Origin: Acorus gramineus
Lineage: Eukaryota > Streptophyta > Magnoliopsida > Acorales > Acoraceae
Direction: 5' to 3'
Length of the DNA: 64,000 nt
Assembly (NCBI GenBank): GCA_030737835.1
Contig: CM060854.1
Location: forward strand, 10,473,272-10,537,271
Positions 2,164 to 52,165 of the stretch are shown piece after piece (within the stretch, counting starts at the first letter, position 1; each line of letters opens with the position of its first letter). The position numbers and the translations under genes are program-made. Under the pieces are notes generated by a model that saw only the letters and a list, made by a program, of their open reading frames with translations, had not been told where the DNA came from and did not search any database.

Positions 2164-3169
2164 TCGTTTCCTCTTATGTGTTTCACTTTAAAAAATATTC
2201 ACTAAGAACAAATCTATCTATAGAATGACATAATATAATTTTAATAATCATCTTTATTCACTCTTCCCTTCTGTAGCAATTATAGGCTAAATATAAATCC
2301 CTAACAAAAACGTTCGAAGGATAGAAACGTCTTGTCTTAATTTATATTCAATTTAAAACACAAGTTTTTCAATCATATTTAATTGAAAACCGTTTCATGC
2401 AAATTTCGTTTATACATGCATGCACTCAATTAAAATGAAACGTATGCATTATCTTCTTCAAATAAAATACATGCATTTTAATACCAAAGTTTTACATGCA
2501 TGTCATTCCAAATACCAACCTTTCTCATCATTTCTAACAAAGATTACCTCATGCGATCCATTTAAATCTAGCATATATTCATTTTAAATATAAGAAATTG
2601 TGTACTTCTTTACCGAATTGTTAGAATTTATGTGCATAACAAATAACTATTAGACTAAACACAAATTCTTATAATTATCACATGAAGAATATAAACATAA
2701 AATATATATTAAATTATGCATACTCTAAAATATATATACTAAAAGCATAAAATAAAAGAGTAATGATTAGAAAAGTGTATCCAGAAATGTGGAAGCGTTT
2801 GAAGACACTCTGTACTCGGTGAATAAGGCCCCTCACGCACAGGGTTGAATGGCTTCTACCATTGAGAGATACGACCACAATAGGTTTTGTTCTTCTGAGG
2901 TGCGAGCTATGGAAGAACCACGATGAACAGACTACGATCCTTTCAGACTCCCAGATCAAAGAGAATAGCTAGAAATTGATAATTGAATATTGCATGGACA
3001 CAACCTCTCACTCTTTGATAGTATGTGGAAGAAAGAGAGATTACAAAAATTGAACCTATCACAATGCTTAAAAGATGAGTTATATTTGATTAACCCCACC
3101 AGCTGATACCAAAAAAAAAAAAAAACCACTACTTTCTTTTCCTTTAAAAGTAGCTAATTTATAAATGAA
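2164..3169. other. Intergenic, unassigned
   Basis: AT-rich DNA. A more GC-balanced patch at about 2765-2965 has an open frame on the minus strand, but nothing in it is recognisable; it may be a retroelement leader fragment. The last 80 bases (about 3080-3169) are the 3' flank of gene A and are repeated beside gene B (6362-6459) and gene C (17035-17125). Confidence 0.5.
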
Positions 3170-3493
3170 TTATGAATGATCACAACAGTGGATCTTGGAT
3201 TTTCCATGCAGGCATTTATCACAGAGGCTGAGACTACTAGGGAGGAGATCCATGGAGTCCACCATCCCTAGGCGCATGCAAACGCAGCCACGGCCGGAGG
3301 TCCGATAAACGTCGGAGATGGCGGCGCAGCAGCGTTCGTTAGCGACGAGGCTGCGACAGGCCGGGATCTTAATGTGGGGGCATCCCTTCACAAACTTCAC
3401 ACTGTTGTGTTCTTGAAATTGTTCACCATGAACAAAGGGGAGGAGGAAGAAGAACAAGAGGAGGACAAAAGGGAGAGACTTGGAGTTTGCCAT
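3170..3493 (-). CDS. Small secreted cysteine-rich protein, lipid-transfer-like (gene A)
   Basis: Intact single-exon gene of 107 residues. Residues 1 to about 23 form a signal peptide (MANSKS, a Leu/Phe-rich core, then VHG), so the product should be secreted. The mature part has ten cysteines spaced C-X7-C-X8-CC-X13-C-X-C-X18-C-X2-C-X8-CC. The first eight follow the C, C, CC, CXC, C, C order of the eight-cysteine lipid-transfer/2S-albumin fold, with an added C-terminal CC pair. The start is set at the ATG at 3493: the frame is open further upstream, but only to GTG, and gene C starts at the same residue. A TATA box lies 50-57 bases upstream. Gene C differs at only eight residues. Role unknown; defence or reproductive secreted peptides are possible but unproven. 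Confidence 0.8.
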   Translation of the reverse strand: MANSKSLPFVLLLFFFLLPFVHGEQFQEHNSVKFVKGCPHIKIPACRSLVANERCCAAISDVYRTSGRGCVCMRLGMVDSMDLLPSSLSLCDKCLHGKSKIHCCDHS

Positions 3494-3542
3494 GGAAGGA
3501 TTTTTGAGAGGGCACACACAGCTTAATTTCTATAAGTGTTGT

Positions 3543-3550: not shown

Positions 3551-4944
3551 GAGAAGTGGTTTGTGATGAAAATCTTTTGGGGTTTGTGATTTTGTTCGCA
3601 TTGAGGAGGAAACTTCGACCCGTGTGGGTCAAGTTTTATAAATGTATGAACTTTATGTTATAAAAAAATTCTAACTCTTTCATGGTGGACTTGCACGTAA
3701 ACTTCTATAAGTCCACCCTGTGCTAAATTTTATTTTATTTTATTATATTTTATGTGAAACATTGAAATATCCTGATAATTTTGATAATTGATATCCCCTT
3801 CTCTCTCCCTTTATGCCCATATCATTGGTCCCATAAAACTTTTTCCACAACAAACAGAAGTTCCTCCACTGTGTGAACAAAAGCAGAAGATGTGACTGTG
3901 GAGTATGTATATCACTCGTATTCCTTCGGGCGCTGTTACATCTAGATTCATTTTCAACTTCAATTTTAGTCTTATATGTGTCGATAGATAGAAATCTACG
4001 TATATGTTTACATTAACAAAATATATGTTTCAAAAAAAAAAATTTACATTTTCTATAAATGGATTCATGCATTTCATTAGAGTATATGCTTTATTTTTTA
4101 TAAAAGCATGTATCTCATTAGATGAGGTATACTATTTTTAAAAAATTCAAAACACATATAGACTGGAATTGAGACTAGAAATAGAGCTGAATGTAATATT
4201 ACCCTATTCATTTTAGTGAAATCCACATATAACAGTGTGCATGTCAAAATCTAAAAGTCCCTCTCATAGTTCTCTGGTGATGCCGACGCGGTTTGACGAA
4301 GCTTATGCAATGTTTAGATCCGTGTTGACAAAATGATCAATGATTACAACTATGGGGCTTGATTTTCCAATAACAAATTCATCACCAATTAATTAGAAAG
4401 CGCGTCTCAGTTTTTAGTTCAACAAATATGCTTTTGCTAAGGCATCGTTTGAATTCTAAAAAATTTAAATACTAGATGTGGATCCTAACGATTTTCATCG
4501 TAAGATTGCTGCATTCTTCGTCGTTTTAAAATATGCATAAACAATACTTTTGTTCACAACATAAATCTCTTTACAGTCTTAATAGTGTTGAAGATGTCAA
4601 TTTATAAAGAGTTACAAGGATTTTATGTAGATAAAAATGATGTCATCATCAATTTTCTTTTTTTTTTAAATATACATCCACCCATTGAAACACATATACT
4701 AATAAATTAAAGTGTACACTGATATACATTAGTTATTTTTTCTATTCAGAAAATGAAATTTTTTTTTAAGCCTCATACATTACGATAAAGGCCATCATAC
4801 GCTATGGTACAAGAGTTTATACAAAATCAAGCGTCGTGAATTGTACATCCAAACGGTACCCAGATACGAGCTTCCTGAAAATAAAAAATCCAACTATGTA
4901 GAGCTACCTTTTCCATTATAATTGTAGCTTTATAAATGAATTAT

Positions 4945-5743
4945 TTTTTTTAAAAAAAAATAGGTAGATGTTGCTATCATGATTTTATTGAAGATTTCGA
5001 AATATAACACTGAAGGAGGTGAGAGAAAAATAAAGAAAATTGAAAACAAACCAGAAAACTAGCTATGAACATAAGGAGAGGGAGAGAAGAGGTAATTCTT
5101 GGCAGAGAAAGGCCGGTTAGAGATATTTAACCGAGCTTGACACCGAGAGATTCACCCCGTTAAACCACAATCCTCAAGTGCCCACTATTGAAGTGCACCT
5201 CCCTCGCACCCGCCATGAACCGACCCCAATCACGTACGGATCCACAAAAAAATTCCCACATATTCTCCCAATAAATTATCGCACCTCTAAATAATATTGC
5301 GTTTTGCGAGAGCCAAATCGCCCAAGTACTTGCTAGGACAATTGATTGAGAGATGTGACCCGCCGCCCTGCTCGCACTGAGGTGATGAAGATCCTTGCCA
5401 GCCAACCAGAGCTCCTCCAACGATTGGAAGTTCAGGGACAGCCCAGTAGCGTCCCCGTTCACCGACCACAAGCGACGAACAATCCGACACTGACAGAATA
5501 AGTGTTGCGCTGTCTCCGGCTCCTCCAAACAGAGGATGCATGTAGTTGAGGCCGACTGATTCCATTTGGCCCTATAGACCAACATCACCACCCTGTTGTG
5601 ATAAAGAAGCCACATAAAGATCTTGATCTTCAAAAGGATTTTGGGTTTCCAGATTTGTGGCAACAGCATGCGAATCAGGGAGGAACCAGCTCGATATCGA
5701 CACCACCAATTGTACGCTTCTTTAGAGGAGAAGCTCCCTTACG
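4945..5743 (-). mobile_element. 5'-truncated LINE insertion, left arm
   Basis: Flanked by a perfect 16-bp target duplication TTTATAAATGAATTAT at 4929-4944 and 5744-5759. A T/A-rich tail at the 4945 side marks the 3' end, so the element reads on the minus strand. The open frame 5160-5669 (169 residues) encodes the C-terminal reverse-transcriptase zinc-binding domain of an L1-type LINE: FMWLLYHNRV, then a CILC...HLFCQC zinc knuckle, then IVRRLW. The rest of the reverse transcriptase is missing, so it is a dead copy. The same insertion, with the same duplication, lies in the right arm. Confidence 0.9.
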
Positions 5744-5807
5744 TTTATAAATGAATTATGAATGATCACAACAGTGGGTCTTGGATTTCTCATGCAGGCA
5801 TTTATCA
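5744..5807 (-). pseudogene. 3' tail fragment of the cysteine-rich gene
   Basis: Matches the last codons (from the Asp-Lys-Cys-Leu segment to the stop) and the 3' flank of genes A and C, with no 5' part. The LINE target duplication lies at its 3' end. It is a partial duplication of the gene tail, also present in the right arm at 17679-17744. Confidence 0.75.
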
Positions 5808-6459
5808 TATGATTGAATGAAACATTTATTCATATATTTTTTTCTGGAGGTATATAGTATATACTTCGTTAAAGAAGAAAAAAATAAATTTAAAATATGT
5901 TGGGTGTTGCAAAAAATGACTTTATAAATGATTATCTCTCACAATCTTAAAGGACCACCATCTTCCCCAAGCATACCTTAATTGTGACTGGAAATGAAGT
6001 ATCAATGACCACAATAATAAAAATTGAATATTTTAAGAAGACATATTCATCATCACATAGTTTTGATTACTTAAAAAGCACGTCTTAATTTTAGTTCAAA
6101 AAACCATATTTTTTTTTAAAAGACACCATTTAGATTCATGTTTGAGCGAATTCCGCGGTTTAAAATGTCAAACGCACATCCAAATGATTTTTTTGATGAA
6201 TTTCACAACTTTTTTGTTATATTTTCAACGTTTAAAGTTTCGTAAACAATGTATTTATATCACAACATAAATCTCCCCACACCTAAAAACATAAATCTCT
6301 CCTCTTCACTATGTTAAAGGATCTCAATTTATTAAAAAAAATGAATAGTAGAAGTTCCACGTAGTTATATTTGATTAACCCCACCAGCTGATACCAAAAA
6401 AAAAAAAAAAAAAGCCACTACTTTCTTTTCCTTTAAAAAGTAGCTAATTTATAAATGAA

Positions 6460-6768
6460 TTATGAATGATCACAACAGTGGATCTTGAATTTTTCATGCA
6501 GGCATTTATCACAGAGGCTGAGACTACTAGGGAGGAGATCCATGGAGTCCACCATCCCTAGGCGCATGCAAACGCAGCCACGGCCGGAGGTCCGGTAAAC
6601 GTCGGAGATGGCGGCGCAGCGGCGTTCGTTGGCGACGAGGCCGCGCGCGACAGGTGGGGATCTTAATGTTGGGGCATCTCCTCACAAACTTCACACTGAA
6701 AACAAAGGGGAAGAGGAAGAAAGAAGAAGAAGATGAGGACAAAAGAGAGAGACTTGGAGTTTGCCATG
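6460..6768 (-). pseudogene. Frameshifted copy of the cysteine-rich secreted protein (gene B)
   Basis: Aligns along its full length with genes A and C, starting from ATG at 6768 (MANSKSL) and ending at the conserved stop position 6460-6462. Three length changes break the frame: 4 extra bases in the signal-peptide region, replacement of about 27 bases by 3 after the signal core, which removes the VHGEQFQEH segment, and 4 extra bases after the second cysteine codon. The reading stops soon after residue 34 in the start frame. A TATA box remains at 6798-6805, but the promoter is shorter than in A and C. Confidence 0.85.
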
Positions 6769-6797
6769 GAAAACAAAGGAAGTGTGTGAGTGTGAGG

Positions 6798-6805
6798 TAT
6801 ATATA
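6798..6805 (-). promoter_or_regulatory. Retained TATA box of pseudogene B
   Basis: TATATATA, aligned with the TATA boxes of genes A and C. Confidence 0.6.
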
Positions 6806-6839
6806 GAGAAGTGAGAGGGAAACTTGGACCCGTGCAGGA

Positions 6840-8511
6840 AAAAAAAAAGAATAATAATAATAGAAAGTGGAACAAAAGATGTATATGTTATATTTATAGA
6901 AGGTTAAAAATATTAATTTATATTCATTCTGAATCCGTAACTATTATAAATGATTTGATATTGTAAAATCAGTATATCTGTTTTAGATAAATATTTGGAT
7001 ATGAACATATATTATAAAATTGTATATGTTTTATTATATATTGTTTATATTCTTACATGATTGATCTTAATCATAAAAATTTAAATGACTATTATATTTT
7101 CTATGTATAATATTTGAATAGGGAATGATCTTTAAAATCTCGATTTAATTTTCTTGCTTCATCCCCTGGATTAGTGTCATCGCCTTTTAGAACATTTTAA
7201 CTAAATGGATGAGCGTATATTAAAAAAGTCTTGTTATCTAGTACCATATATTAAGTCCCACTGACAGGTCGTATCAGGTGTTGTTTTTTTCATTGGTTGC
7301 CAAGTGTACTTTTACAGAAGGGTAAAATATCAAAATATAATATTACTATTCATTTAAAAATTGAAATTTTGGCTCTAAAAAACTCTTCCCCACTTTTTTT
7401 GTTTCTCGTGTAACCTCTTCCTCAACTTCTTTTAAAAAATTCTTTTTTTATCCTCCTAAGCTATCTGCCATTTTAAAAATTTATTTAGGCTAGCCTGCTC
7501 ATCTCCTGTGATCTTCACCATTGTATTTCTCTTGCTGCTATCTATCATATGAGAGGTGGTTCGACTATTTTTCAAGCTCTCCTCTGACCTCCACCTACAA
7601 CTTTTTTTTTATAAATTCAGATATATTTTTAAATGTATCCGATTTTAAAAGAAAAATAAAATTTAAGAAAATGGAAATATAATGCATATAAAAATCAGAA
7701 ACATTTGAAATGTAATTAAATTTCAAAGAAAAACAAATATGGTTTAAAAACACAAATAAAAGATGAAGTATAATATATATAAAATTCAAATAGATTTGGA
7801 ATGTAGCTGAACTTTAACGAAAAACATAAACTCCGTAAATGCACAAAACAATTCCAAAAATATAATGCATATAAAGTTAGTTATATTTCTAAAAACAATA
7901 AATCTAACAAATGTAACTGACTTAAAAAAAACAAACAAATACTGTTCAAAACCACACTAAAAACAAATAGTATACTGCATATAAAATTCAGTTACATTTT
8001 CAAATGTAACTAAATTTTAAAACTTTAATGAAAATATAAACTACATAAAGGCAAAAAAAATTTAAAATAAAATGCATATTATGTTTAGATACATTTTTGA
8101 AAAAATAAATCTAACAAATGTAACTAACTGACTTAAAAAAAAAAAATTGTTCAAAATCAAACTGAAAATAGAGAGTATAATGTTCTGTTTTTTTTTTGAA
8201 AAAAATATTAAAAAATAAAATAAAGGGTATTTTGATTTTTTTTTTACTTGAATGATTTTCATATGTAAAACTTTACCAAAATATGATAGATGTTATCATG
8301 AATGATAAATATGCTTATTTTTTAAACTTTACACTGATACTAAAATAAATAGGTTATTTTTAATGATATAAAAATAAAAATAAATAGTATGCTTTTGAAT
8401 GGCATGGTATACCGCACACATGAAAACCCAAAAAAAGTGAAGACACATGGACAAAATAAAAGCAATTTAATGGTAGCCGTCAACATTTGCAGCTATAATT
8501 TCATGGATATG
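6840..8511. repeat. Repeat-derived DNA with ATTCAGATACAT-like motifs
   Basis: No gene. The stretch 7525-7640 matches 36380-36480 (shared ATCATATGAGAGGTRGTT and ACCTCCACCT patches). From 7604 to about 8260 degenerate ATTCAGATACATTT-like and ATGCATATAAA motifs recur. This looks like an internally repetitive non-autonomous transposon, but no termini were fixed. Confidence 0.5.
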
Positions 8512-8525
8512 AAATACAACATTTA

Positions 8526-8703
8526 GGGCTTAGCAGTGTTATCGATAGGTCCTGGGTTCAAATCTTGGCGTTGACTTATCCACCTGTTTGTTGGTGATTA
8601 TTCAAAAGAATTTTTCATGTGACCAGGGCAAACAGGCAGAGGCAGCCTTTCCAGTTCGACCGTAAGGTCAGCCACATAGAGTCCCTCCGATATATATATA
8701 AAT
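8526..8703 (+). mobile_element. tRNA-derived SINE, copy 2 (5'-truncated)
   Basis: Flanked by a perfect 14-bp target duplication AAATACAACATTTA at 8512-8525 and 8704-8717. It keeps the B-box-like GGTTCAAATC near 8552 and the CTCCGATAT 3' end, but lacks the A-box region seen in copies 1 and 3, so it was truncated on insertion. Confidence 0.88.
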
Positions 8704-8717
8704 AAATACAACATTTA

Positions 8718-9369
8718 CCAAACAAATTTTTTTTATATATAATAAATAAATGAGAGGGGGATGGTCTGATTATATTTAATAAAGAAAAAGGCATAACCAA
8801 CTCTTCGATATATAGGGATCACTTATCCAAAAAGGTACACAGGGGTATAATAGGTATTGATCATATACTACCTCACACGGCTTGTAATGAGACCTAAATT
8901 CTGGGGCTTAAAATCATTATTGATTAAAAAAATGAAGAGAGCTACACATGGGGATAGACATTTATTATGTTGATCAGTTAACTGAATGAAGTTGTGGGCT
9001 TGAAAACTTTTAGGTATGGCATTGGTTAAGGAAAAGGAAAATGGTATTTCTGATCCTGTGTGAAGTGTGGACACAACCCTCACTGAATTTTGTTTAGAAA
9101 TATGCATTCGACCATTAAAGTACATATTATTATATAAAAAAGTATACATTGAGATATATTAGTGTATTATTTTCCTTAAATTCAAAAATAAGGCTACAAA
9201 ATGGGATTGATTGTAGCGACATTCATTTGTTGACCATCTAATCAGGCTTCAGTTGCCTTTGTGAATACTATATGCTCATAGGAATTGGCTATTTTGTAAT
9301 CAATACAAATTTAGATTAGAACTGGAGCAAATAGAGTTTGACTTTGAACTTATTTCAAAAATAAATAAA
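8718..9369. other. Intergenic DNA
   Basis: No gene seen. About 9110-9180 belongs to a dispersed family with AGTATACATTGAGATATATTAGT-like sequence found at six other places in the window. Confidence 0.45.
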
Positions 9370-9800
9370 AATACATACAAGAAGAAAATTCTAAGTCTTC
9401 CATGGTTGACTTGCTCACTTGCATGAAAGCTTCTATGAGTACAACCCCAGCTAAATTTTATTTTTATCTTCTGTAAAACATTGAATTATCCATGATGACC
9501 CCTTCTCTCCGTTGATGTTCATATCATCAGTTCACTTTCTAGACAACTGTTTTTGCTTGTCTCATTGAACCAGTCTCATAAAAGTTGATCCAGATGACAT
9601 TGAAGTTTCATTAATAGTGAGAACAAAGGCATAAGTTGAATGACTTTCATACTTTGGAGTTTGTGTGTGTCATATTCATTTGGTGGAGACCACAAATAAA
9701 AGTTTGCATGTCAAACTCAAATACTCAATGGTCCTTCTCATGCTTTTCTGGGCGATGCCCACGCATCAGGCGAAGTTTAGATCCGCGTTTAGGTGGATTC
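9370..9800 (+). repeat. Decayed direct copy of the gene A/B flanking unit
   Basis: Matches about 3660-4330 in the same orientation with many substitutions and gaps: TTCCATGGTTGACTTG at the start, ACCCCTTCTCTCC in the middle, and the AGATCCGCGTTT end matching AGATCCGTGTTG near 4317. There is no gene copy next to it. It shows that the unit was duplicated more than once. Confidence 0.65.
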
Positions 9801-10847
9801 AAACGCTTAGATTAAAACAGTGTTTTGGTTTATATATCCCAACCCATTCTTTTACTTGTTAACTTTATAAATTTTCTCACATTTGAAGTTATATATATGT
9901 GAAAACAATGATTTTGAAAAGATCAAATTTTTAAAATCTTGTATGCCTAAGAGCATATTCAAAAGATTCTCCATTCGATATATTATCCAAAATAGAGAGT
10001 TAAAATCTTGAAAAACATAGGCCAAAAGACTCTTTTGATGACTTCATCTAATAAAATTTCTCTACCAGGCTCTATACTTGTGGGGAATCCCATAAAGAAA
10101 CTTTATATTAAAAAAAGAAGAAGAAGGCAGCATTGTTCTCGTGGGTGAGGGCTTGGAGAATTTGGAGAGATGGGGTTGGATTTTATTTCGTAGATATGAC
10201 ATGAAATATTTGATCATTTCAAATGATGATAGGATAAAAATAGGGAGGCTTTTAGAATGTAAAAAAAACCTTCCTATATATCATAGAGAGCTCATCTCTC
10301 CCATAATGTGGGAAAAGATAACGAGACTTTTGTTTGGTTTGAGGATTAAATTATTCTAAGATTTATGACTATTCTAGTATGAATAATGATAAAATGATTT
10401 TGTGTTTGGTTGTGTTTTGAATTATTCTTATTTCAAAAACGTAATAATAAAGTTTTTGTTGTTTGGATAAAATGTGAATAAAGTGTGGATAAGAATTTAT
10501 AAAATGTAAAAAAAAATGATGACATTTGATTTATAAGAGGTGGTGATAGTTGATTTGACAATGGGTCAACATATTCTTTTTATTTGAATAACATGTAATA
10601 ACTTAATTCTAATAGGTGGATGGAATCCATATACCACTTTATACTAGTTAATTCTAGCATAGAGATTCTCATTTATTCTAATAATCCAAGCATCCATAAT
10701 GAAGTTACTCTAACTAATTTTAATTTATTCCAAGCTTATTCTCTAACCAAGATGTTCATTAGGCAGGTGCTTGCGCCTATATGTGCGCCTAGACACCATC
10801 AGGCCCACCTAGGTGTAACCTATAATACATGGGTTGTGCATATGCTT
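9801..10847. repeat. Intergenic DNA with a dispersed MITE-like repeat
   Basis: No gene. About 10370-10640 resembles 16020-16300 (repeated GTTTGG-, AATTATTCTTGTT- and ATGTGAATAAA-like blocks and a shared GGTGATGATAG patch), so both belong to one non-autonomous element family of unknown class. Confidence 0.45.
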
Positions 10848-11634
10848 GGAATTGTTTGGTTGACAAGTGGGATTAGGGTTCTATGAATCCTGGGATTCCA
10901 AATCCAGGTGGATTGGAATTGAGAATTCTGTGAAATTGTTTGGTATGGAATATGATTTAGAAAACATGATTGATATTCCTAATTCCAAAGATATGTTTGA
11001 TAATTCCTATATTACAATATAAAAAATAAATATTTCTAAAAATACTCTTTCTACAAAAATCTAACATATGTTAACTCATATTTAATTTTATATTATTTAA
11101 CGCCCATACACATCTTCTAAAATTACCTTTTATTTAATAAAATTTTAACAAATAATATTTTATCGATTATTAAATCCATGAATTGATGAATAACACATAA
11201 AAAAAAAAAAAGTTTTGTCTTACTTGGCTATTGTGTTTTTTTAATTATTGGCTGATGTGAATTGGTGGAGACTGAGGAAGTTGGTTTTTATTGGTTGATG
11301 TGGATCGGTGGAGATGGAGAAATTTTTTTTTTTTAATTTTTGGCGAGAATCGGGATTAATGGGGGGGGGGGGGGGGAGTCGGTTATTATTAGGAAAAGGG
11401 GGGAGTCGGTTATGATTAAAAAAGGGATGTAAAATCCGGGTAAAAAAATTTTTTTTTCAATCCATCTAGATAGAGATCGAGGAAATACCACTTCCGTGGG
11501 ATCTTCAATCCCATTCCCAATCCCTCTCTTATAATTATAATCTTCTTTTGAAAATTTTTCAAACAACTTATTCATCTGGATTGAGATTCTCAATTCCAAT
11601 CGAACCATTCAATACTCTTATCCAAACATGCCCT
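10848..11634. mobile_element. Probable MITE with inverted ends
   Basis: The left end (GATTGGAATTGAGAATTCTG near 10910) and the reversed right end (GATTGGAATTGAGAATCTCA near 11600) are inverted copies, and both flanks read like TTGTTTGG or GTTTGGAT. A run of about 18 G at 11358-11376 lies inside. Superfamily and target duplication are not resolved. Confidence 0.5.
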
Positions 11635-12369
11635 TAATAGACTTGATTTATTATTATAAACTATTGAGATTAAAACAAATGAATATAGTTTGGTTTTAAT
11701 CAAAATAATATAAAATATAAACAAATAACCTCATTGTATTCATTTAAAAACTAACCTAACTAAAAAAATTAGTTTTTTAATATATCATTCTAAATACACT
11801 AGTCAATTATTTATAATAAGAAAATCTTGTATTAGGTCCTTTCGCAGTTACTTTTGCTAATCGCACACATTTTGATTTTTTTGAAGTATATATTTGATTA
11901 ATGAAATCTTTTTTCATAAAAAATAAACTACATACTCATATGAATTTATCTCAAATCATTTGGATACGAAAATTAATATTCTTATTTGGATTCGTAACAG
12001 ATACAAATATGTTTCACATAGTTGATATATCTTAATGTAGGTGATCAAATAATATATTAGAGTATAAGAATTAAAATCGAGAATTCAAAACTTATCCTCC
12101 ACCTAAAGATTATATACAACAAAATACAATAGTTATTTAAATTTTTATAATTGTTATTAATCATGTAAGATAATAACACCACATTCAATTTTTTTAAGAG
12201 CTGATATGTTGATATTTGCATATCAGGTAATTTTTAACTTTCAAAAAATATAGATTTAAAACGAGTGCATATATTCCTAAGATAATCGACAAGCTTTAGT
12301 AAACAAAGATGTGTCTAACAATTATTTTTTTCCCTTTATAAACATAGCATATTCATCATCTGTTCACTC
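11635..12369. other. AT-rich intergenic DNA
   Basis: Nothing recognisable; stops in every frame. Confidence 0.5.
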
Positions 12370-12425
12370 TCTATTATTCATCCCTTTTCTGCCTTCACTT
12401 TGACCTCAAAAAAGCATTGTAACTA
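12370..12425 (+). repeat. Relic of the gene C promoter region, left of a LINE
   Basis: The stretch TTCACTTTGACCTC...CATTGTAACTAGTCC resembles 16498-16540 upstream of gene C (TTCACTGTGACCTC...CATTGAACCAGTCTC). The continuation, CCCCACATGGGTCC at 14053-14066, lies on the other side of the LINE and matches the CCCCACACGGGTCC block at 16570. Confidence 0.5.
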
Positions 12426-14047
12426 GTCCAACAAAATATGACCATGCGTGCTTGCGTCTGCTCTGCGAAAGCTTTGGGGTTGGTAAACGGTGAACCATGC
12501 GGGTTCTTACACATTAACAAGGGGTTGAGACAAGGAGACACTCTCTCTCTCCTTCTTTTCGTGATTGTGGCAAATGCATTTAGCTGAATGATGCAGAAAG
12601 CTTGAGCTGGGGGCTGGGTGAGAGGACTTCGATGTGGAGAAGGGTGGTCGGTGCATGATCTCGCACGTACAATACACATATGACACACTCATTTTATGTG
12701 AGGCTAGCCCGAGGATGGTTAGGGGGTCAAACTGGTATGTTGTTGCTTTGGGCTGGTATCCAGTCTGCTTGTAAATTTCAAGAAATCCTCCATTTCAGGC
12801 ATAAATGTGGAGGCCGGGCACCTCGCGAGGTTGTCCCATATCCTTGCTTGTGATGTGCATGAATTCCCAACAACTCGGGGTTGCCTCTGCACATTGGCAA
12901 ATTGACGAAGCATGATTGGGCGCCGTTAGTTGAACGGTTCGAGAAGAGGCGAGAGGGATGGCAAAGTAGCTTCCTTAGCATGGGCGGTAGGCTGATAATG
13001 CTTAAGGTGATGCTTTCGAATCTTTCGATATACTATCTCTCCATTTGCAAAATCCCCAAAGGGGTGTTGGGTAAATTAGAGGGCTTACATAGAAGGTTCC
13101 TATGGAGTGGTTCAAGGGAGGTCAAGAAGAAAATTCACCTTGTTAGTTGGGATCGGGTCTGTGATAGCAAGAAGAATGGGGGTGCCGGCGGGGTGGGTTC
13201 TTAATTTGGAGGACATGAATCGGGCATTGCTTCTCTAATGGTTGTGGGGTTGGGATATGGATCCAATCTTACTGTGGTGTCGAGTAGTGTGGGATTCATA
13301 CAATGGTGGTGCTCTCATACATAGTAGATACCCCATTTATTCTCGTCATACATCTTGGATTTGGCGGAGCAGTTTAGCTGAACTGGACATCTTCTCTTTG
13401 GCGACAGGTTGGCTGATCGGGGAGGGGACATCCACACGTTTTTGGCAAGACATTTGGGTTGGTGACACGCTGCTTAAATCCCAATTCCCTAATGTGTTTG
13501 AAATTGCTAGATACAAACAAGGGGCACGGTCATTCTCTTTTGGAGAACCCGTGGGCTGACTGGTTTTTGGGAAATCAAGTTGAGGAGAGCGGTTCAACAA
13601 GAAGAAGTGGACTAATATTTAGAGCTTTTGGAGCTTCTAAGGCAACAGGGAACAAAACCGAATTGCAATGATCTGGTGGTATGGCAACTTGCGCTGGGGA
13701 TGGGTTTAATTTCTCGGTAAAGTCTGGCTGGCTATGTTTGGTTGAGGAGGGAGAGAGATCTATATTGGGTCAAAGACTGTATGAGAAAAACATTTAGGAG
13801 ATGACTAAGTGTTTTGTTCAAGATTGGAGGCCCTCTTGTATGGGGGAGGGGAGTATTAGTTTCCAAAATGACATATTAGTTTTGTCATAGGGTGCGAGTC
13901 TACGATTTGGAATCTGGTAGATATCTCTTCTACTCAGGTGCCATTTGGTATAGCCTTTTTGTTTTATTTCTTTGCTTATTTTGTATTGAACTTTCGTTCT
14001 TAATATATTAAGTCGTATGCCTACCATTTTAGTAAAAAAAAAAAAAA
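12426..14047 (+). pseudogene. LINE reverse-transcriptase pseudogene
   Basis: Plus-strand L1-type LINE fragment. An early LRQGD motif of the reverse transcriptase appears near 12522-12537. It is followed by the post-RT region at 12881-13204 (FEKRREGWQ, SMGGRLIMLK, HRRFLWSG) and then 13242-13559 (WLIGEGTSTRFWQDIWVGD), which precede the zinc-binding domain in plant LINEs. Frames are broken by several stops and shifts, and the YADD catalytic box is not preserved. A poly(A) run near 14034-14047 marks the 3' end. The element seems to have landed in an old copy of the cysteine-rich gene promoter. Confidence 0.85.
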
Positions 14048-14075
14048 TTACCCCACATGGGTCCAAGTTTCCCGG

Positions 14076-15059
14076 GTTCAAATCGTTTATGGTTTTCTAC
14101 AAGAAGCTCCAGTTGTTTAGATAACGGATATATATTTGTTAATCATGGTTTAGATAACGAAATATATCCGGAATATTCCAACTCTGTTAAAGAATTTTTA
14201 ACCACGGGGGGTTATTTGCATTTATGGTATGTTTACAGGGGGTTATATGGATATATCGATATTACAGAGGGTTATATGGATATCAGGAAGATTACAGGGG
14301 GTTATATGGATTTTTCCCTTTCTCAAAATTTCAGATGTAACCAATAATTACTTTTTATAACTCTTTGTAATTCCTCGTGTTGAACTGTATAAATTGAGAT
14401 CCTCAACACTATAAGAGCTGGTTTGATAAGGGGATAAGTATTGGGATAATGGATAATTATGTGGATAAGTGAGTGAGGGGACAGCTTATTCTCATTTGGT
14501 ATAAAAAATTATTGGGATAAATTGTGGACAGTTATCCCGATATTGAAAATGAGGATATTTTGTTCCACTTAAAGGCTGAAATAACATTTATCCCCACTGT
14601 TTATCGCAATTTTAATAAATGTAAATATGAACAAAATTGATAGACTTTTTATCTTCTAAAATTAGAACAATTTATCATCAAAACCTTATCCCCTTGCCCA
14701 AAGAGGGAGAGGAGATTCATGTTACCATGCAAAAACATTGTTTGTGTAGATTTAAAATGTCAAAAATGTGGTAGAAACTACAGAGAATGTGAAAATCAAT
14801 CGGATCCGGATTTCACATTTAAACTGTTGAGAGGCAAATTCGAATGGTGCCTTAGCTTTTCAAAAGCATTTTTTTTCTGTTTGAAAACACGTTTGAAAAA
14901 TAAAAATATGAATAAAGTGATTTAAATAGCCTTTGATTTATGAAAAGAGCATTTTCTGCGTTTTTTAAAAAATAAATTTTTTACACTAAAAGCTGTAAGT
15001 AATTTTTTAATTAAGTTTGCTTCTTGAAACACGCTTAGTAACACATTTGAATTTTCTGC
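14076..15059. repeat. Cluster of MITE-like repeats
   Basis: No gene. About 14130-14335 is one end of the fold-back family with GGGGGTTATATGGAT repeats, also seen at 48688, 57288 and 59541. About 14393-14710 is bounded by GATAAGGGGATAAG and the inverted CTTATCCCCTTG, suggesting a MITE. About 14870-15112 resembles 56985-57232 in reverse (AAACACGTTTGAAAAATAA blocks). Confidence 0.5.
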
Positions 15060-15320
15060 TTAATTAAAAAGTAGAATTTTCTCCTGATCGTGTTACCAAA
15101 CGGGCCCTAATTAATTAAAAACTGAGACACCCTTTTAATTAATCAAAACTCTTTCTTGAATGTCTTCCCAGAGAATTCAAGCCCCATTGTTATGATCATT
15201 TCCCATTCATTTTTTGACACATAGTATGCTCGGTGAAGATGGTGGTTTTCTTTTAAAGATGTGCAGAACAATCATTCATGTAGTCATTTTTTACTATTTG
15301 AATTCATTTTTGCTTTTTAA
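15060..15320 (+). repeat. Decayed copy of the 3' flank of the cysteine-rich gene
   Basis: Matches about 17390-17640 in the same orientation: AAAACTGAGACAC, TTAATCAAAACT, then CTCGGTGAAGATGGTGG against CTTGGCGAAGATGGTGG. No gene body remains. Confidence 0.6.
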
Positions 15321-16539
15321 TGAAGTACATAAAAAATAAAATAAAAATATGTTAAATTCAATTTTTTTTAACTCACCTTTTAAGTTCTACAATTTTGTTC
15401 GAAGTTATATGTATTTATACATAGATTTCTTCTTTATCATGTGACCTCCAAATAAATGTATATGATGTACAGTGGAGATAAAAAATAAGGCTAAAAAAGA
15501 GAATGAGTATATAATCTAATGAGTTGAAAGCATTTATATTTTTCAACATTTTCTAAATTTATTAATTTATATATGTATATATATTGGGAAAAGTGAGGAT
15601 TGCATGAATAACTCAGTGGATTAGCAGTTTTTTTTTTAATGTGTTCGCATGTTGGAATTTCAAAAGGTGGTCTACACATATGTCAGATGAGTCTCGTGTT
15701 TTCAATTTTGATTTAGTTAAGTCCGAGTCCAATTAATTACTAAGGGCATTGTTATACTCAAACGCTTCTATATGTCACATCATTTAACACAATATATGAA
15801 ATCTTTGATGGAATATATACTCTAAATACAAAAATGTATGTGTTTCTGTATTCAATTATATATTTTACTTTTTTGTGAAAACAAGGGCCTTATTAGATGG
15901 GATATATTTCGAAAAAAATTTAAAAACCATGATGTAACATTTTCCTTAATTCAATGTTTATGTGCAGGTCATTGTTTAGTGATGCTGCTCTCCATGTTGA
16001 CAAAGTTTGGGTACTGATATAAGTTATTTTGGGATAGATAACTATTTAATAAAAAATAAATTAACTTTTTTGTTATTTTTTAATTATTCTTGTTGGAAAA
16101 CATAATAATGAATTTTTTGTTATTTAGTTGATTATGAATAAATTATTCTTAAAAGTGAATGAGATATAAATATTTTTTTATGAATGGTAAAAAAATGATT
16201 TAACATGTGGATCGACCCCCTGAATTATAAGCGGTGATGACAGATGATCGACCTCTTTTTACCAGTTGAATAAATTGAGTGAAATAACATAATGTCAAAT
16301 GTGACATGGAATATTAATACCACATTTATTCTGTCATAACTATACTAACATATTCTTTGTAAACAAACAGAATTTTAGACTCATTCTCCATATTCCACCC
16401 TATTCTCCCCCCTATTCCAGTATCCAATAGGGCATAAGAATTGCGAAAGTACTGGGACTTTAATTTATAAAGATACATAGCATTATATTGAACCAGTCTT
16501 CACTGTGACCTCTGAAAAACATTGAACCAGTCTCAAAAC
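15321..16539. other. Intergenic DNA upstream of gene C
   Basis: AT-rich with no coding frame. About 16020-16420 belongs to the same repeat family as 10370-10640. Confidence 0.45.
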
Positions 16540-16640
16540 TCTACTCCACACGGGTCAAAGTTTCCTCTACCCCACACGGGTCCTCCTCAATGAGAACAAA
16601 ATCACAAACCCCAAAAGATTTTCATCACAAACCACTTCTC

Positions 16641-16648
16641 TATATATA
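16641..16648 (+). promoter_or_regulatory. TATA box of gene C
   Basis: TATATATA, 63-70 bases before the ATG. Compared with gene A, about 13 extra bases (CCTCACACATTT region) lie between this TATA box and the shared AACAACACTTATAG leader. Confidence 0.7.
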
Positions 16649-16710
16649 CCTCACACATTTAACAACACTTATAGAAATTAAGCTGTGTGTGCCCTCTCTA
16701 AAATCCTTCC

Positions 16711-17034
16711 ATGGCAAACTCCAAGTCTCTCCCTTTTGTCCTCCTCTTGTTCTTCTTCCTCCTCCCATTTGTTCATGGTGAACAATTTCAAGAACACAAC
16801 AGTGTGAAGTTTGTGAAGAGATGCCCCCACATTAAGATCCCGGCCTGTCGTGGCCTCGTCGCCAACGACCGTTGCTGTGCCGCCATCTCCGACGTTTACC
16901 GGACCTCCGACCGTGGCTGCGTTTGCATGCGCCTAGGGATGGTGGACTCCAAGGACCTCCTCCCTCGTAGTCTCAGCCTCTGTGATAAATGCCTGCATGA
17001 GAAATCCAAGACCCACTGTTGTGATCATTCATAA
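16711..17034 (+). CDS. Small secreted cysteine-rich protein, lipid-transfer-like (gene C)
   Basis: Intact single-exon gene of 107 residues, 99 of them identical to gene A. It has a signal peptide at residues 1 to about 23, then cysteines at 38, 46, 55, 56, 70, 72, 91, 94, 103 and 104. The order C, C, CC, CXC, C, C fits the eight-cysteine lipid-transfer/albumin superfamily; the terminal CC at 103-104 is extra. All ten cysteines are kept between A and C, while the eight changes fall between them (for example Gly/Arg at 37 and Met/Lys at 81). By eye there are about seven silent changes against eight amino-acid changes. Silent sites are fewer, so this suggests mild constraint. Extracellular action is inferred from the signal peptide; ligand and target are unknown. 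Confidence 0.82.
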   Translation: MANSKSLPFVLLLFFFLLPFVHGEQFQEHNSVKFVKRCPHIKIPACRGLVANDRCCAAISDVYRTSDRGCVCMRLGMVDSKDLLPRSLSLCDKCLHEKSKTHCCDHS

Positions 17035-17678
17035 TTCATTTATAAATTAGTTACTTTTTAAAAGAAAAGAAAGTAGTGGTTTTTTTTTTTTTTGGGTATC
17101 GGCTGGTGGGGTTAATCAAATATAACTGTGTGTAACTTCTAATATTCATTTTTTTATAAATTGAGATACTTTAACACAGTGAAGAGGAGAGATTTATATT
17201 TTTAGGTGTGGGGAGATTTATGTTGTGATGGAAATGCATTGTTTACGAAAACTTTAAACGTTGAAAATATAACAAAAAAGTTGCGAAAGTCATCAAAAAA
17301 ATCATTTGGATGTGCGTTTGACATTTTAAATCGTAGAATTCGCTCAAACATGAATCTAAATGATGTCTTTTAAAAAAAAAATGGTTTTTTGAACTAAAAT
17401 TAAGACGTGTTTTTTAAGTAATCAAAACTATGTGATGTTGAATATGTCTTCTTAAAAGATTCAATTCTTATTATTGTGGTCATTGATCCTTCATTTCCAG
17501 TCACAATTAAGGTGTGCTTGGCGAAGATGGTGGTCCTTTAAAATTGTGAGAGATAATCATTTATGAAGTCACTTTTTGCAATACCCAACATATTTTAAAT
17601 TTATTTTTTGCTTCTTTAATCAAGGATATACTATATTCCTCTAGAAAAAAATATATGAATAAATGTTTCATTCAATCA

Positions 17679-17744
17679 TGTGATAAATGCCTGCATGAGA
17701 AATCCAAGACCCACTGTTGTGATCATTCATAATTCATTTATAAA
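17679..17744 (+). pseudogene. 3' tail fragment of the cysteine-rich gene, right arm
   Basis: TGTGATAAATGCCTGCATG through the stop and 3' flank, essentially identical to the end of gene C (16983-17048). It ends at the LINE target duplication (17729-17744). Counterpart of 5744-5807. Confidence 0.78.
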
Positions 17745-18544
17745 CGCCAGGAGCTTCTCCTTTAAAGAAGCGTACAACTGGTGGTGTCGAGATCGAGCTG
17801 GTTCTTCCCCGATTCGCATGCTGTTGCCACAAATCTGAAAACCCAAAATCCCTTTGAAGATCAAGATCTTTATGTGGCTTCTTTATCACAACAGGGTGGT
17901 GACGTTGGTCTATAGGGCCAAATGGAATCGGTCAGCCTCAACTACATGCATCCTCTGTTTGGAGGAGCCGGAGACAACGCAACACTTATTCTGCCAGTGT
18001 CGGATTGTTCGTCGCTTGTGGTCGGCGATCGGGGACACTATTGGGCTATCCCTGAACTTCCAATCGTTGGAGGAGCTCTGGTTGGCTGGCAAGGATCTTC
18101 ATCACCCCAGTGCGAGCAAGGCGGCGGGTCACATCTCTCAATCAATTGTCCCAGCAAGTACTTGGGCGATTTGGCTCTCGTAAAACGCAATACTATTTAG
18201 AGGTGCGATAATTTATTGGGAGAATATGTGGGAATTTTTTTGTGTATGCGTGCGTGATTGGGGTTGGTTTATGGCGGGTGCGAGGGAGGTGTACTTCGAT
18301 AGCGGGCACTTGAGGATTGTGGTTTAACGGGGTGAATCTCTTGATGTCAAGCTCGGTTAAATATCTTTAACCGGCCTTTCTCTGCCAAGAATTACCTCTT
18401 CTCTCCCTCTCCTTATGTTCATAGCTAGTTTTCTGGTTTGTTTTGAATTTTCTTTATTTTCCTCTCACCTCCTTCAGTGTTGTATTTCGAAATCTTCAAT
18501 AAAATCATGATTGCAACATCTACCTATTTTTTTAAAAAAAAAGA
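17745..18544 (+). mobile_element. 5'-truncated LINE insertion, right arm
   Basis: Flanked by ATAATTCATTTATAAA at 17729-17744 and 18545-18560, the reverse complement of the duplication around the left-arm copy. The zinc-binding region reads from 17854 (FMWLLYHNRV, CILC, HLFCQC) but meets a stop at about 18181, where the left-arm copy keeps a serine-glutamine pair (TCGCAA against TCGTAA). The upstream frame is also shifted. The left-arm frame stays open for 169 residues. Confidence 0.9.
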
Positions 18545-19795
18545 ATAATTCATTTATAAAGCTACATTTATTATGGAAAAGGTAGCTCTACATAGTTTGG
18601 ATTTTTTATTTTCAAGAAGCTTATATCTAGGTACCGTTTGGATGTACGATTCACGACGCTTGATTTTGTATAAACTCTTATACCGTAGTGTATGATGGCC
18701 TTTATCGTAGTGTATGAGGCTTAAAAAAAATTTCTATTTCTGAATAAAAAAATAACTAATGTATATCAGTGTACACTTTAATTTATTAGGATACGTGTTT
18801 CAATGGGCAGATGTATATTTAAAAAAAAATTTAGAACTTGACTTTTATTGGGATGTTTTTTTTAATTCAGAAATCAATATTTCAAAGCAGTTGATGTTTG
18901 ACAGAGAAAATTGTTTTTCAATTCAAAAAATCGATTCCGACCAAAAAGAAATGTTTTTGAGCTTTTCAAAACACAGATTTTGAGAAAAAAAAATTAAAAG
19001 GAATTCAGCTTCCGATTCTGAATAAAGCTGTCTCGTTTAACTGTACGATTTTAATTTTTTAGCCTTTCAAAAAATAAAAACTGTCCACGTACAATCAAAT
19101 AGGGCCTTAGAATTCAAACGATGCCTTATCAAAAGCATATTTGTTGAACTAAAAACTGAGACGCGCTTTCTAATTAATCAAAACTCGGTGATGAATTTGT
19201 TATTGGAAAATCAAGCCCCATAGTTGTAATCATTGATCATTTTGTCAACAGGATCTAAACGTTGCATAAGCTTCGTCAAACCGCGTCGGCATCGCCAGAG
19301 AATTATGAGAGGGACTTTTAGATTTTGACATGCACACTGTTATACGTGGATTTCGCTCAAATGAATAGGGTAATGTTATATTCAGTTCTATTTTCAGTTT
19401 ATATGTGTTTTGAATTTTTTAAAAATAATATACTTCATCTAATGAGATACATGCTTTTATAAAAAATGAAACATATACTCTAATGAATTACATGGATGTA
19501 TTTATAAAAAATATAAAAAAATTCTTTTAAAACATATGCCTTGTTAACGTGAGCATATGCATCGATAGAAATTTATCGATGCATATAAATATGAGTGATA
19601 TACATACTCCAAAGTCACATCTTCTGCTTTTGTTCACACAATGGAGGAAACTTCGGTTTTATTGTGGGACAAGTTTTGTGGGACCAATGATATGGGCATA
19701 AAGGGAGAGAGAAGGGGATATCAATTATCAATGTTTCACGGAAAATAAAATAAAATAAAATTTAGCATAGGGTGGACTCATAGAAGTTAATAGGA

Positions 19796-21283
19796 ATAGT
19801 CAATTAGGATTTTCATGGACAAAATGTCCATGCTCGTGAATTTGTAAATCTTGTGTTTTTCAATCAGGATTTTGGTTCGTTGACAAAAAGTCCAGCGTTA
19901 TTCGATTGAGACATTATTTCGTGGACATAAAGTCCAGCGTTATTCGATTGAGACATTATTTCGTGGACATAAAGTCCAGCGTTATTCGATTGAGACATTA
20001 TTTCGTGGACATAAAGTCCAGCGTTATTCGATTGAGACATTATTTCGTGGACATAAAGTCTAATGTTATTCGATTAAGACATTATTTCGTGGACAAAAAG
20101 TCCAGCGTTATTCGATTGAGACTCCTCATGGTAGACATTTTGTCATGTGTTATTCAATTTAAACAGGATTTGTGAAGACTTTCATAAGTGATGGATTCTT
20201 GTGGACTTTAGAGAGAGAAATATAAAGGAAAAGGTCATTTCAAAATCCCACCCAAATGGGTGGGATTCTCATGGACTTTTATTCCAGCATTGTGAATATT
20301 TCTTCTTTTTTTCTTTTAACAAATCTACTTTATGATTTTTATCACATGCCTTTCATATTTTTATTCACTTTTTTTTCTTTATTTATCATCTTTTTTTTTA
20401 TGAATGTCCATATGTATGAAATATTCCTATCACCTCATATGTTTGATGAATATATGAGAATGATAGTGTTGGCTTGTGCGGCTTTACATAACTTTCTGCG
20501 TAAAGAGTATCATTCAGATGAGTTTTCAGAAGATCTAGAAGATGATGATGAAATTGTTCTAACTGAGGAGCAACAACGAGAGGACAATGAAGACTCTCCG
20601 GAAGTTCAAACTCAAGAGCAACAACGCGGAGATGCCAATAATTGGCGGTTAAATATAGCTAAACGTATGTGGGATGACCGTGACATCAATATTCATGGTG
20701 AACTAATGTAATATTATCAAGTTAAAAATGGTGTCTTTATCATGGCATTCTAGCAATATACATTTCAGATATATAAATATTGATATTTACTATATTAAAT
20801 TACATTTTATGTTGGGTATCAATAATTTATGTTGAATTTGAATATTTGAGTTCTTTATTTGTTATTTTAAAATTCTAAAAATATTTTTGTGTTTATTAAT
20901 AGAAATCCACATGTGAAAAGAGTCAATCTCTGAAAGTCTGTAAAAGTCTGTGAAAATCTGTGAAAGTCCATGAGAGTGATTTGTGAAAGTCTACAAAAGT
21001 CTGTGAAAGTCCATGAGAGTGATTTGTGAAAGTCTGCAAAAGTCTATGAAAGTTTATGAAAATCCATAAGAGTCAATATGTGAAAGTCTGCAAATGTCTG
21101 TGAAAATCTGTGAAAGTCCATGAGAGTCAGTTTGTGAAAGTCTGCAAAAGTCTGTGAAAGTCCATGAGAGTTAATTTGTGAAAGTCTGCAAAAGTCCACG
21201 AAAGTCTGCAAAAGTCTGTGAAAGTCTGCAAAGTCTATAAAAGTCCATCACTTAAATAATGTCCACAGAAATCCATCAAAGTC
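19796..21283 (+). mobile_element. PIF/Harbinger-like element inserted in the right arm
   Basis: This stretch is missing from the left arm, where AGAAGTTTACGTGCAAGTCCACC is short and continuous. The stretch holds a transposase C-terminus (20406-20711) and repeat-rich ends. At 19878-20130 a 42-bp unit (TTTCGTGGACATAAAGTCCA core) repeats about five times. At 20915-21280 GTGAAAGTCTGCAAAAGTC-type units repeat. Inverted GGTGGACTCA motifs occur at about 19765 and, reversed, at 21284, so the true termini may lie slightly outside. A clean 3-bp target duplication was not seen. Confidence 0.7.
20406..20711 (+). pseudogene. PIF/Harbinger transposase C-terminal fragment
   Basis: The frame encodes MIVLACAALHNFLRKEY, the conserved ALHNF box near the end of PIF/Harbinger (DDE_Tnp_4) transposases. 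An acidic Glu/Gln-rich tail and NNWRLNIAKRMWDDR follow, then a stop. The DDE catalytic core is absent, so the fragment cannot be active. Upstream sequence in the same frame (20256-20405) is T-rich and does not look like transposase. Confidence 0.75.
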
Positions 21284-21504
21284 TGAGTCCACCATGGAAG
21301 AGTTAGAATTTTTTTATAATATAAAGCACATACATTTATAAAAATAAATCAATAAATTATATACTCAAATCAGCTGGATGATACCTCTTTTATAATTTTT
21401 TTAATCTAAGTATATACTAGCATAATAATCTAGTATACGCTGGCCCAACCTAGGTTAGGCGAAAGTGGAGTTAGATATATCTTAATAATCTAATATATGA
21501 CTAT

Positions 21505-26500: not shown

Positions 26501-29500
26501 AAATAAATATAAAGAAAAAAAAAAAACTAATACCCATTTTCTGTAAAGCTGATGGTTATGGAGTAAATGGTAAGGAGTATCATCACACAGATGGAAGATA
26601 AAGGAAACGACTTACATAGGCGAGAATACATCCCTTTCCCAGGACCTCCAGCAGAAAAAGAACCACCACCTCCCATAAGCATCTGCAGAAAATGTTCAAA
26701 TGATTTAATTTATGAACTAAGAAAAATATATCAATATGGAATACCCTAAGCACAAAGAAACATAGCAGACCAGGATAACATTCAAAGTCATGGCATCCTT
26801 CTCGTTATGCCAGCCACCAGGAACTTCAAATGCCAGAGCAACGTGTGTCTTCTATTTTGACATAAACATACACAATATGTGAAAAAACAAAGACCAGGTT
26901 GTACAAAGTAAACAAAATAAAGCTCTAGTCATTGATGCGCACAGGTGTATCTGTTTGACGGCGGAAGTCACCCCCAATGTACTTAGATTTTGGTGCCTGT
27001 GGAAGAGGGACTTTAGGTAGATCAGACAAGAGGGGCTCTGCAACTGACAACAATTCCTCATGTTCCACCCCGGATGCTGCAAGCACCATCCGAGGAGCAG
27101 TGTAGTTCTCCTGAAATTTTAAAGATATCAGCAAAAAAAACACGATAAACAAAACAATAACTAAAAGAACAGAACAAAAGAAACTTTTCCACATGAAGAA
27201 TCAAAATCATCTTACCACAACATATTCCTCCAAAATTGAACTATTTAATCTACTAATTGCAGATTCTGATGCCATCAAAGGATTGGCCAAAGCACCAGAA
27301 TAACCAGCAGCATGAATTGCCTCTAACACCAGATTATGTGGGTTATTAGCGGATTCTTCAATCTCTTCCTTCACTCTCATTAGCTGCAACAAGAACGTAA
27401 TGTCAACAGGTGGTGATCCTCCTCCTCCCCGCCCCCAAAAAAAAAAAAAAAAAAAGGCCCTAGAAGAGAAGCATGAAACACTTCATTAGGTTATAATACC
27501 TGTTCGTTAACTTCCCAATCCAAGAATGCAGGATTTCTCACACAATCAACAAGCACCTCAACCATTTCAGGCACGTGTGTTTTAATTGCGGCATACGTAT
27601 AACCCATCTGTTCCCGATGGGCTGAAGAACCAATCCTTCCTCCAATAGCTTCTACTTCACGAACAACGCGGAGATGGCTACGGTTCAGTGTACTTTTGAA
27701 AGCCATTTTCTCCAACAGATGTGAGCCCCCCAATGAGATGGGTGTTTCATATGTAGAGCCCGCATTTATATATAATCCCAATGAAGCAACAGGTCCCTGT
27801 CCAATGCATCCAAAGAAATCTGATTTTGATTGAAATCCAAACATGTAATGAATTCAATTTTTTATTCAGGAAGTGCATATATACCGGAGCTGTTTCTGAG
27901 GCAATCTTGACACCATTTGGGAGAGTAGTGATCTTTGTCTGTCCTGTTTCCACATGATCTGGCAATGCAGGAGGAATTATAACACCAGGAAGTGGAAATT
28001 CTGGGGGAGGAAGCGTCTTGGACTTCTCCCCAAAGAGCCAGCCAAAAAACCCTTCTGGGGAAGATGTTTTCGCAATGCTTGTACTAGCATATCTGGCAGC
28101 ATTGACCCCAATAGCGGCTCCATCACAAGAATGCCCCTGTCAAGAACATAACATGTTTCACTATATACTTTCTTTTCTAAAAAAAAAAAGTGCTTCCTCT
28201 TCTAAAGAATACATACAACAAGCAGAGTGACAGAGTTGCAACAAAAAAAAGTGACAGAGTATATCATCTAAAAACACAGAACGGTGCAAGGACACAGAGA
28301 CAGGACATGGACACGACACGTTGCAGACAGAGTGACATGGCAAATCTTGAGAAACTAGGAGACAAAAAAGTGAACGACGCATAAATAAATAAATGTCATG
28401 TTATGATTATTTGAAAATATTGAGCACACAGCCATAAACAATAAAAATTGGTATAACTATAGAAGTGTGCCATATATCATATCCATTAGGATTTTAATAC
28501 CATTTGACTCACTGTGAACATAATCCTTGAAATAGTTGTAAAGAAAAGGTCACAATGTTGTCTCATATGCGTCATGTGTCCACAATGTGTCAACTATGTC
28601 TAATACATGTCCGGAAATTCAGAGAATTAAGTTTAAATTTTGGACACATATAGGGCATGTCGAACACGTGTGACGTGTCCAATATATGTCATGTTACTCG
28701 TATCATGTTTTGAACTATGTCTAATACATGTCCGGAAATTCAGAGAATTAAGTTTAAATTTTGGACACATATAGGGCATGTCGGACACGTGTGACGTTTC
28801 CAATATATGTCATGTTACTCGTATCATGTTTTGTGTCTATAATATGTTGGACACAGACACAGTATGTTCATTGAAGTATTTGCACCTCCTAGGAACACAG
28901 CCTTTACCCACCAAACCATGTGTAATTTGCATGAATAGAGAACATATGGCACTAACTAGAAACAATAATTTTCATATATTTTGACCACAAATACTGTACA
29001 CAACCGTTTCAAAGTAAAAATAGCAACAAACTAACAATATCCAAAATACAAATTTCTCTAATTAGAAACAACAAAAACCCAATTCCCATGTTTAATTAGT
29101 GACTCAGTGTACATCAAGTGAAAGACACCCTTTATTCCACTTGGTCGCACAAAAATGACCAACTGCATTGTTGATTAATTTGCATATTAAACACACACTT
29201 TTCAGAAAAGTAGAACCCACTTAATATTAATCAATAATCCATGCATCAACATATAAACATGCAGTAACCTAGCCATGAGTTCAATCTAGATATTATTGTT
29301 TTGCGTGTTACAATAATTTTTTATTTTGTCGAATTTCCCCAAAGTTTACAATAATTTTACCAAATTAAGAATTTTTTACCCTTCCCAAGTTATTCCCAAA
29401 TTTCCAAACTTATGACTAGGGTGACCAACATAGATTTATCTCTATTCCCAATCATTATTTGGGAATTCGGGATGAACCCATAATGGTTCTTTGTGGGGGA

Positions 29501-50241: not shown

Positions 50242-50459
50242 AAATACAGCTTTTGCGACAGATATGTTGGCTGTCGCAAAAGATTAAATTAGTGATGTGA
50301 GTTTTGCCTTTTGCTGCTGTCCTAAACCATCGCAAATAATAATTTTTTTTTCCGTTGGACCCAAAAATCCATATAATCTTTTGTTGCATCATTTAGATTT
50401 TAAAATTTTTTTGTATATAACCTTGAGGGGTGATTGTGAAAAGTACATAAAAAAAAGAA

Positions 50460-51128
50460 GGGTTAAAGACATCTAAGTCCCTACAAACATGGAAAAATCC
50501 ATATAAGTCCCTACTAAAATTGAGACAGATGTACGAGTCCCTGAAAACTAAAAAAAACCCAATTATATCATCCCTAAGTTAAATTTTCATCCAAACTTAA
50601 CGAAATATTCTTTTAATATTCCATCACATATAATTGTATGGACATTAACGTCCTTATAAACAATCATAAAGACAAATTAGTCCATGCAAAAGACAAAATC
50701 GCCCCTAAAAGAACTTTTACATTAAATTGTGTACACATTGCAGTCCCTATAAATAATCATAAAGACAAATTAGTCCCCGCAAAAGATAAAATTACCCCTG
50801 AAAGACTTTTACATTTAATTGAATAGACATTACAGTCATTATAAACAATCGTAAAGACAAATTGGTCATTGTAAAAGACAAAAATACCCCTGAAGGATTT
50901 TTACAGTGACTAATTTGTCTTTATGACTGTTTATAAGGACTTCATTGTCTATACCATTATATGTGATGGAATATTCTGGAAATATTCCGTTAAGTTTGAA
51001 TGAAAATTTAACTCAGGGATGATAATTGGGTTTTTCTGAGTTTTCAAGGACTCGTATGTCTATCTCAATTTTAGTAGGGACTTATATGGGTTTTCCTATG
51101 TTTGTAGGGACTTAAATGTCTTTAACCC
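50460..51128. mobile_element. Fold-back MITE, copy 1
   Basis: Inverted repeats of about 180 bp: 50460-50640 starts GGGTTAAAGACATCTAAGTC and 50950-51128 ends with its inverse. The middle holds about two degenerate 100-bp direct repeats (CATAAAGACAAATTAGTCC). The same family as 52752-53708. Confidence 0.8.
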
Positions 51129-52150: not shown

Positions 52151-52165
52151 TATTTGTTGATCCAT

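Follow-up and report, generated by a model that had tools for sequence, protein, structure and literature searches.

A probable inverted duplication in a decaying cluster of cysteine-rich protein genes of Acorus gramineus, with a LINE insertion before it and a PIF/Harbinger-like insertion after it

A local family of genes for a cysteine-rich protein

The window, i.e., the whole 64,000-nucleotide stretch of DNA analyzed here, contains copies of a duplicated gene which encodes a 107-aa cysteine-rich protein with ten cysteines, and which had been overlooked in the first-pass annotation. Gene-copy comparison places one intact copy, G1, at 3170-3493 on the minus strand, just outside the left of two inverted arms, and a pseudogene copy, G2, within that arm (6460-6767, minus strand), where deletions, a 4-bp insertion and stops have destroyed the reading frame. 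The right arm holds the intact copy G3 (16711-17034, plus strand), detected both by gene-copy comparison and by a protein search of the genome. The same search located a further intact copy, G0, which lies ~15 kb to the left of position 1 of the window (L002:4827-5147, plus strand). Across 398.6 Mb in 137 contigs, it returned five matches at E ≤0.001, with nine of nine candidates scored, and all five lie in the cluster: G3, G0, G1, the 3' part of G2, and a gene remnant beside the LINE of the right arm.

The start of the 107-aa protein looks like a signal peptide when read by eye, and the protein is probably secreted. Pfam searches with G1 and G3 (E ≤1) and with the mature portions of G0, G1 and G3 (E ≤10) returned no family. 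The cysteine spacing had suggested a lipid-transfer or 8-Cys peptide family, which the Pfam profile searches do not support. G3 had no match among solved-structure chains (E ≤10), and the structure predicted from G3 and G1 (mean pLDDT 45) was too poor for use. An LTR retrotransposon, suggested by the direct repeat 3078-3497 / 6363-6771, was also rejected, as the repeat consists of the gene copies G1 and G2.

The 9.7-kb centre between the arms contains diverged relatives of the arm sequence. Sequence comparison identified a diverged and decayed copy of the gene unit, comprising the gene 3' end and downstream DNA, at 14623-15366 (plus strand, oriented as the right arm), and further older decayed pieces of the unit are present, some of them weak matches. 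A diverged copy of the outer arm lies at 9353-9779 (plus strand) and is considered below. The frames at 12863-13668 resemble the end of another LINE in their motifs; two of these frames were searched and gave no Pfam match.

Elsewhere in the window, self-comparison revealed dense direct and inverted repeats at 50447-53720 (~95-550 bp, 73-92% identity) and two tandem 121-bp units, 98% identical, at 28592-28833. A 157-aa open frame at 39617-40090, which we take to resemble a retrotransposon gag fragment, matched no Pfam family (E ≤0.01). An Rfam scan at the gathering threshold and a tRNA scan of the window found nothing.

The inverted arms and the LINE they share

The left arm extends over 3634-6836 (plus strand), with its outer end at 3634 and its inner end between 6771 and 6836, and the right arm (16540-21343, minus strand) is its inverted copy, enlarged by a 1.49-kb insert. 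Both were delimited by self-comparison and arm alignment, and self-comparison agrees with the arm coordinates, the arm size of ~3.2-3.3 kb and the 9.7-kb centre given in the first-pass annotation. Three inverted matches were found, with E-values from 0 to 1.5e-17: 4659-6771 / 18829-16707 at 92.4% over 2141 columns including gaps, 3700-4459 / 19788-19107 at 80.1% including gaps, and 3634-3691 / 21343-21286 at 93.1%. By eye, the outer ends at the breakpoints have short T-rich similarity only.

In the arm alignment, the two arms are colinear in opposite orientation and their homology extends past the gene, interrupted by unlike segments. The arms align poorly at left 3923-4059, and the right-arm segment opposite left-arm 4460-4662 (18829-19107, plus strand) is DNA unrelated to the left arm. 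Measuring arm identity by alignment, as proposed in the earlier annotation, gave 2465 identical sites among 2616 ungapped sites (94.2%) in eight alignable segments, with LINE junctions in common. This sum omits a ninth segment, the indel-scrambled 5' end of G2 and G3 (promoter and signal-peptide end, 90/139), which is hard to align because of the deletions in G2. It also leaves out left 3692-3707, 3923-4059, 4460-4665 and the A-rich LINE tail, which align poorly or are of a different kind. Divergence per segment was K2P 0.05-0.08, apart from a value of 0.019 in the 106-bp segment 5745-5850 beside the LINE. A difference of ~6%, together with private indels, makes the arm pair unlike the usual false copy made in assembly; the right arm moreover carries its private 1.49-kb insert, and both arms lie within one 21.4-Mb contig. 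We therefore assign next to no probability to an assembly artefact.

Each arm contains the same 5'-truncated LINE of ~0.8 kb. In the left arm it was identified at 4945-5743 (minus strand) by a profile match and the arm alignment, with an A-rich tail at the 4945 end, and its open frame 5160-5669 (minus strand) matches zf-RVT (PF13966) with E 9.3e-15. The right-arm LINE was placed at 17745-18544 (plus strand) by the arm alignment. The features of a 5'-truncated LINE are thus all present: a target duplication, an A-rich 3' tail and a reverse transcriptase-related frame. On either side of the LINE stands the 16-mer TTTATAAATGAATTAT, in perfect copies in both arms (4929-4944 and 5744-5759, plus strand; 17729-17744 and 18545-18560, minus strand), as the first-pass annotation had claimed in describing the same truncated LINE with the same 16-bp target duplication. 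The stop codon of each of G0, G1, G2 and G3 also carries the 16-mer, once and with no LINE. It is therefore a genuine target duplication: the LINE inserted at the stop codon of a further gene copy, which survives only as its 3' end. This remnant was traced at 5744-5808 (minus strand) in the left arm by self-comparison, gene-copy comparison and 16-mer comparison, and at 17679-17744 (plus strand) in the right arm by self-comparison and gene-copy comparison; the right-arm remnant is identical to G3 at 66 of 66 bases. The LINE differs between the arms at 39/780 sites against 112/1836 for the rest of the sum, which is no difference (Fisher p 0.31). Other LINE copies in the genome reach at most 86% identity, among the 40 of 4242 candidates that were scored.

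Downstream of G2, G3 and G0, the DNA has diverged to the same extent (K2P 0.065-0.067), with 33/533 differences between the G2 and G3 sides, 34/530 between the G2 side and G0, and 34/531 between the G3 side and G0. This puts the inverted duplication at about the age of the split from G0, and not demonstrably younger. Plant substitution rates are 6.5e-9 to 1.3e-8 per site per year, and at these rates a K2P of 0.065 corresponds to roughly 2.5-5 million years, a figure which gives the scale only. The equal distances would also be in line with gene units having been copied separately, in opposite orientations, rather than with one inverted duplication of 3.2 kb, as would the presence in the cluster of several partial and decayed copies facing either way and the division of the arm matches into blocks by the unlike segments at 3923-4059 and 4460-4662 versus 18829-19107. 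However, colinearity holds for the blocks between 3634 and the gene, whose divergence, apart from 5745-5850, falls within the same range, and the LINE junctions are common to both arms. Separate copying is thus improbable in our view, and a single inverted duplication is the reading carried forward here.

The insert in the right arm and the order of events

The 1.49-kb insert, found in the right arm only (19790-21283, plus strand), was delimited by comparison with the empty site and with the ends of its family, and is truncated at one terminus relative to that family. Its site is empty in the left arm, where the short sequence matches that of the diverged outer-arm copy within the centre (9353-9779); the site is empty in that copy as well. 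As the short form is common to the left arm and the centre copy, the empty site is ancestral. An internal deletion in the left arm, which an inverted GGTGGACTT/AAGTCCACC pair resembling element ends had suggested, was rejected as the centre copy has the same short form and the family ends differ.

Members of the insert family were found at many genomic loci, the best full match being 97% over query positions 177-1584 among the 40 of 672 candidates scored. Ends were read in 11 other family copies. Seven of the eight copies whose start was found have TTA in the sequence flanking the outer end, and at the opposite end, all ten copies whose end was found run on into TATCGACTAC, where the right-arm insert breaks off instead. 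Other genomic copies have G-rich ends that resemble each other; the right-arm insert is without one of the two ends. PIF/Harbinger elements are recognized by flanking 3-bp target duplications of TTA/TAA. In the right arm, TTA at 19787-19789 flanks the insert on one side, and on the other the element end is gone together with ~6-9 target bases. The ORF at 20256-20711 matches DUF6836 with E 0.0079 and 17.1 bits, below the cut-off of 24.2. We take DUF6836 to resemble a DDE transposase C-terminus. From the sub-threshold profile match, the TTA flank and the family ends, the insert is probably a PIF/Harbinger element, a name which is unproven because the profile match is under the cut-off. An exact-pattern search of the window for five transposon-end motifs gave no matches. 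Tandem arrays occupy 19876-20171 and 20927-21248 inside the element, with a 42-bp unit at 94% matches and units of ~43-54 bp.

The LINE and the remnant meet at the same base in both arms, and both are therefore older than the inverted copying. The comparison with empty sites further supports the insertion of the PIF-like element as a third event, which would have followed the inverted duplication. The first-pass annotation had proposed this very order, LINE, inverted duplication, PIF-like insertion, and the empty sites in paralogous copies now place it on firmer ground.

Exchange between gene copies and the question of silencing

Comparison of the gene copies indicates that G1 is a mosaic. G1 differs from G2 at 0/92 sites of the 3'UTR and at 5/178 of the 3' coding part, and it differs from G3 at 3/141 sites in the 5' coding part and at 13/180 in the 3' part. 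When G1 was scanned for a break-point between G2 and G3, the result was exceeded by none of 5000 shuffles, and by 2/5000 when badly aligned stretches were left out. Site patterns among the four copies (p 2.7e-6) likewise change along the gene: G2 alone differs at 20 sites in the 5' part and 2 in the 3' part, and G1 and G2 are set apart from G3 and G0 at 0 and 9 sites, respectively. Without columns 47-67, the counts are 7 and 2 for G2 alone and 0 and 9 for the shared pattern (p 0.002), with few sites left. The mosaic may thus be read most simply as an exchange between G1 and its neighbour G2 that involved the 3' half. In the 5' part, one state is common to G1, G3 and G0, and G2 alone deviates; the pattern by itself is therefore no proof of exchange between the arms. 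The coding parts of G0 and G3 differ in six codons, with a dS of 0.044 from three changes, and this low divergence may come from selection instead of exchange.

Collectively, we consider it very likely that the locus is an inverted segmental duplication of ~3.2 kb within a small, local, decaying gene cluster, with a LINE insertion before it and a PIF-like insertion after it. In the proposed course of events, the LINE would have inserted at the stop codon of a gene copy, giving rise to the 16-bp target duplication, and the unit of LINE and remnant would then have been copied in inverted orientation by DNA-level repair, template switching or a similar process. The arms have since diverged by ~6%, G3 staying intact in one and G2 becoming a pseudogene in the other, and a PIF/Harbinger-like element, now lacking one terminus of its relatives, entered the right arm only. 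G1 may owe its mosaic pattern to partial gene conversion or unequal exchange with its neighbour G2.

Inverted gene copies are known from several other systems. For the ape GSTT2 genes, inverted copies, loss of function and conversion among the copies are reported in human and chimpanzee (PMC3375281), which resembles the fate of the copies described here. However, the conversion reported there is between the inverted copies themselves, whereas the clearest mosaic in Acorus is between the neighbours G1 and G2. The inverted duplication model of plant miRNA origin (PMC3237417) likewise involves inverted gene copies, and one copy in Acorus is a pseudogene; the Acorus locus differs in being without a short foldback, its 3.2-kb arms lying 9.7 kb apart.

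While the order of events in the first-pass annotation stands, its suggestion that double-stranded RNA transcribed through both arms silences the gene family is not supported, given how the copies in the window are oriented. G2 (minus strand) and G3 (plus strand) start at the inner ends of their arms in a head-to-head arrangement and point outward, as G1 does. Their own transcripts are therefore all sense, and none crosses the 9.7-kb centre; a hairpin transcript would need another promoter with read-through of ~14-18 kb. Exact arm-to-arm matches of at least 21 bp cover 1657/3203 bases of the left arm, with a longest run of 77, so that either arm could give small RNAs with matches in the other, and silencing is conceivable from sequence alone. 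The gene sequence in the inverted arms would also fit an endogenous source of hairpin RNA acting on the gene family, with a precedent in the soybean I locus, where an inverted repeat cluster of CHS genes spans 27 kb and target mRNAs are reportedly down-regulated by siRNA (PMC3804491). The likeness lies in the inverted gene cluster; in Acorus, G1, G2 and G3 are oriented outward, and no copy drives transcription across both arms. As the loop is moreover 9.7 kb and the gene sequence makes up only ~0.4-0.5 kb per arm, we regard a hairpin source at this locus as very unlikely. A wider version, in which a lineage-specific secreted cysteine-rich family is confined to the cluster, its copies are partly homogenised by exchange, and the arms with the pseudogene are a read-through source of double-stranded RNA tuning the intact copies, is slightly less probable still. 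If the arms yielded small RNAs, this would be a natural silencing locus; nothing at the locus points that way.

The structure is a well-preserved instance of a common type of event, ordinary gene duplication. The inverted arrangement itself needs no present function, and the genes, if they act at all, do so via their protein. Because empty sites for both transposons persist in paralogous copies, the relative dating is clean, and the locus is a worked case of such dating within one locus. Plant peptide biologists may wish to look at the unannotated protein family, which has three intact copies and includes a mosaic member.
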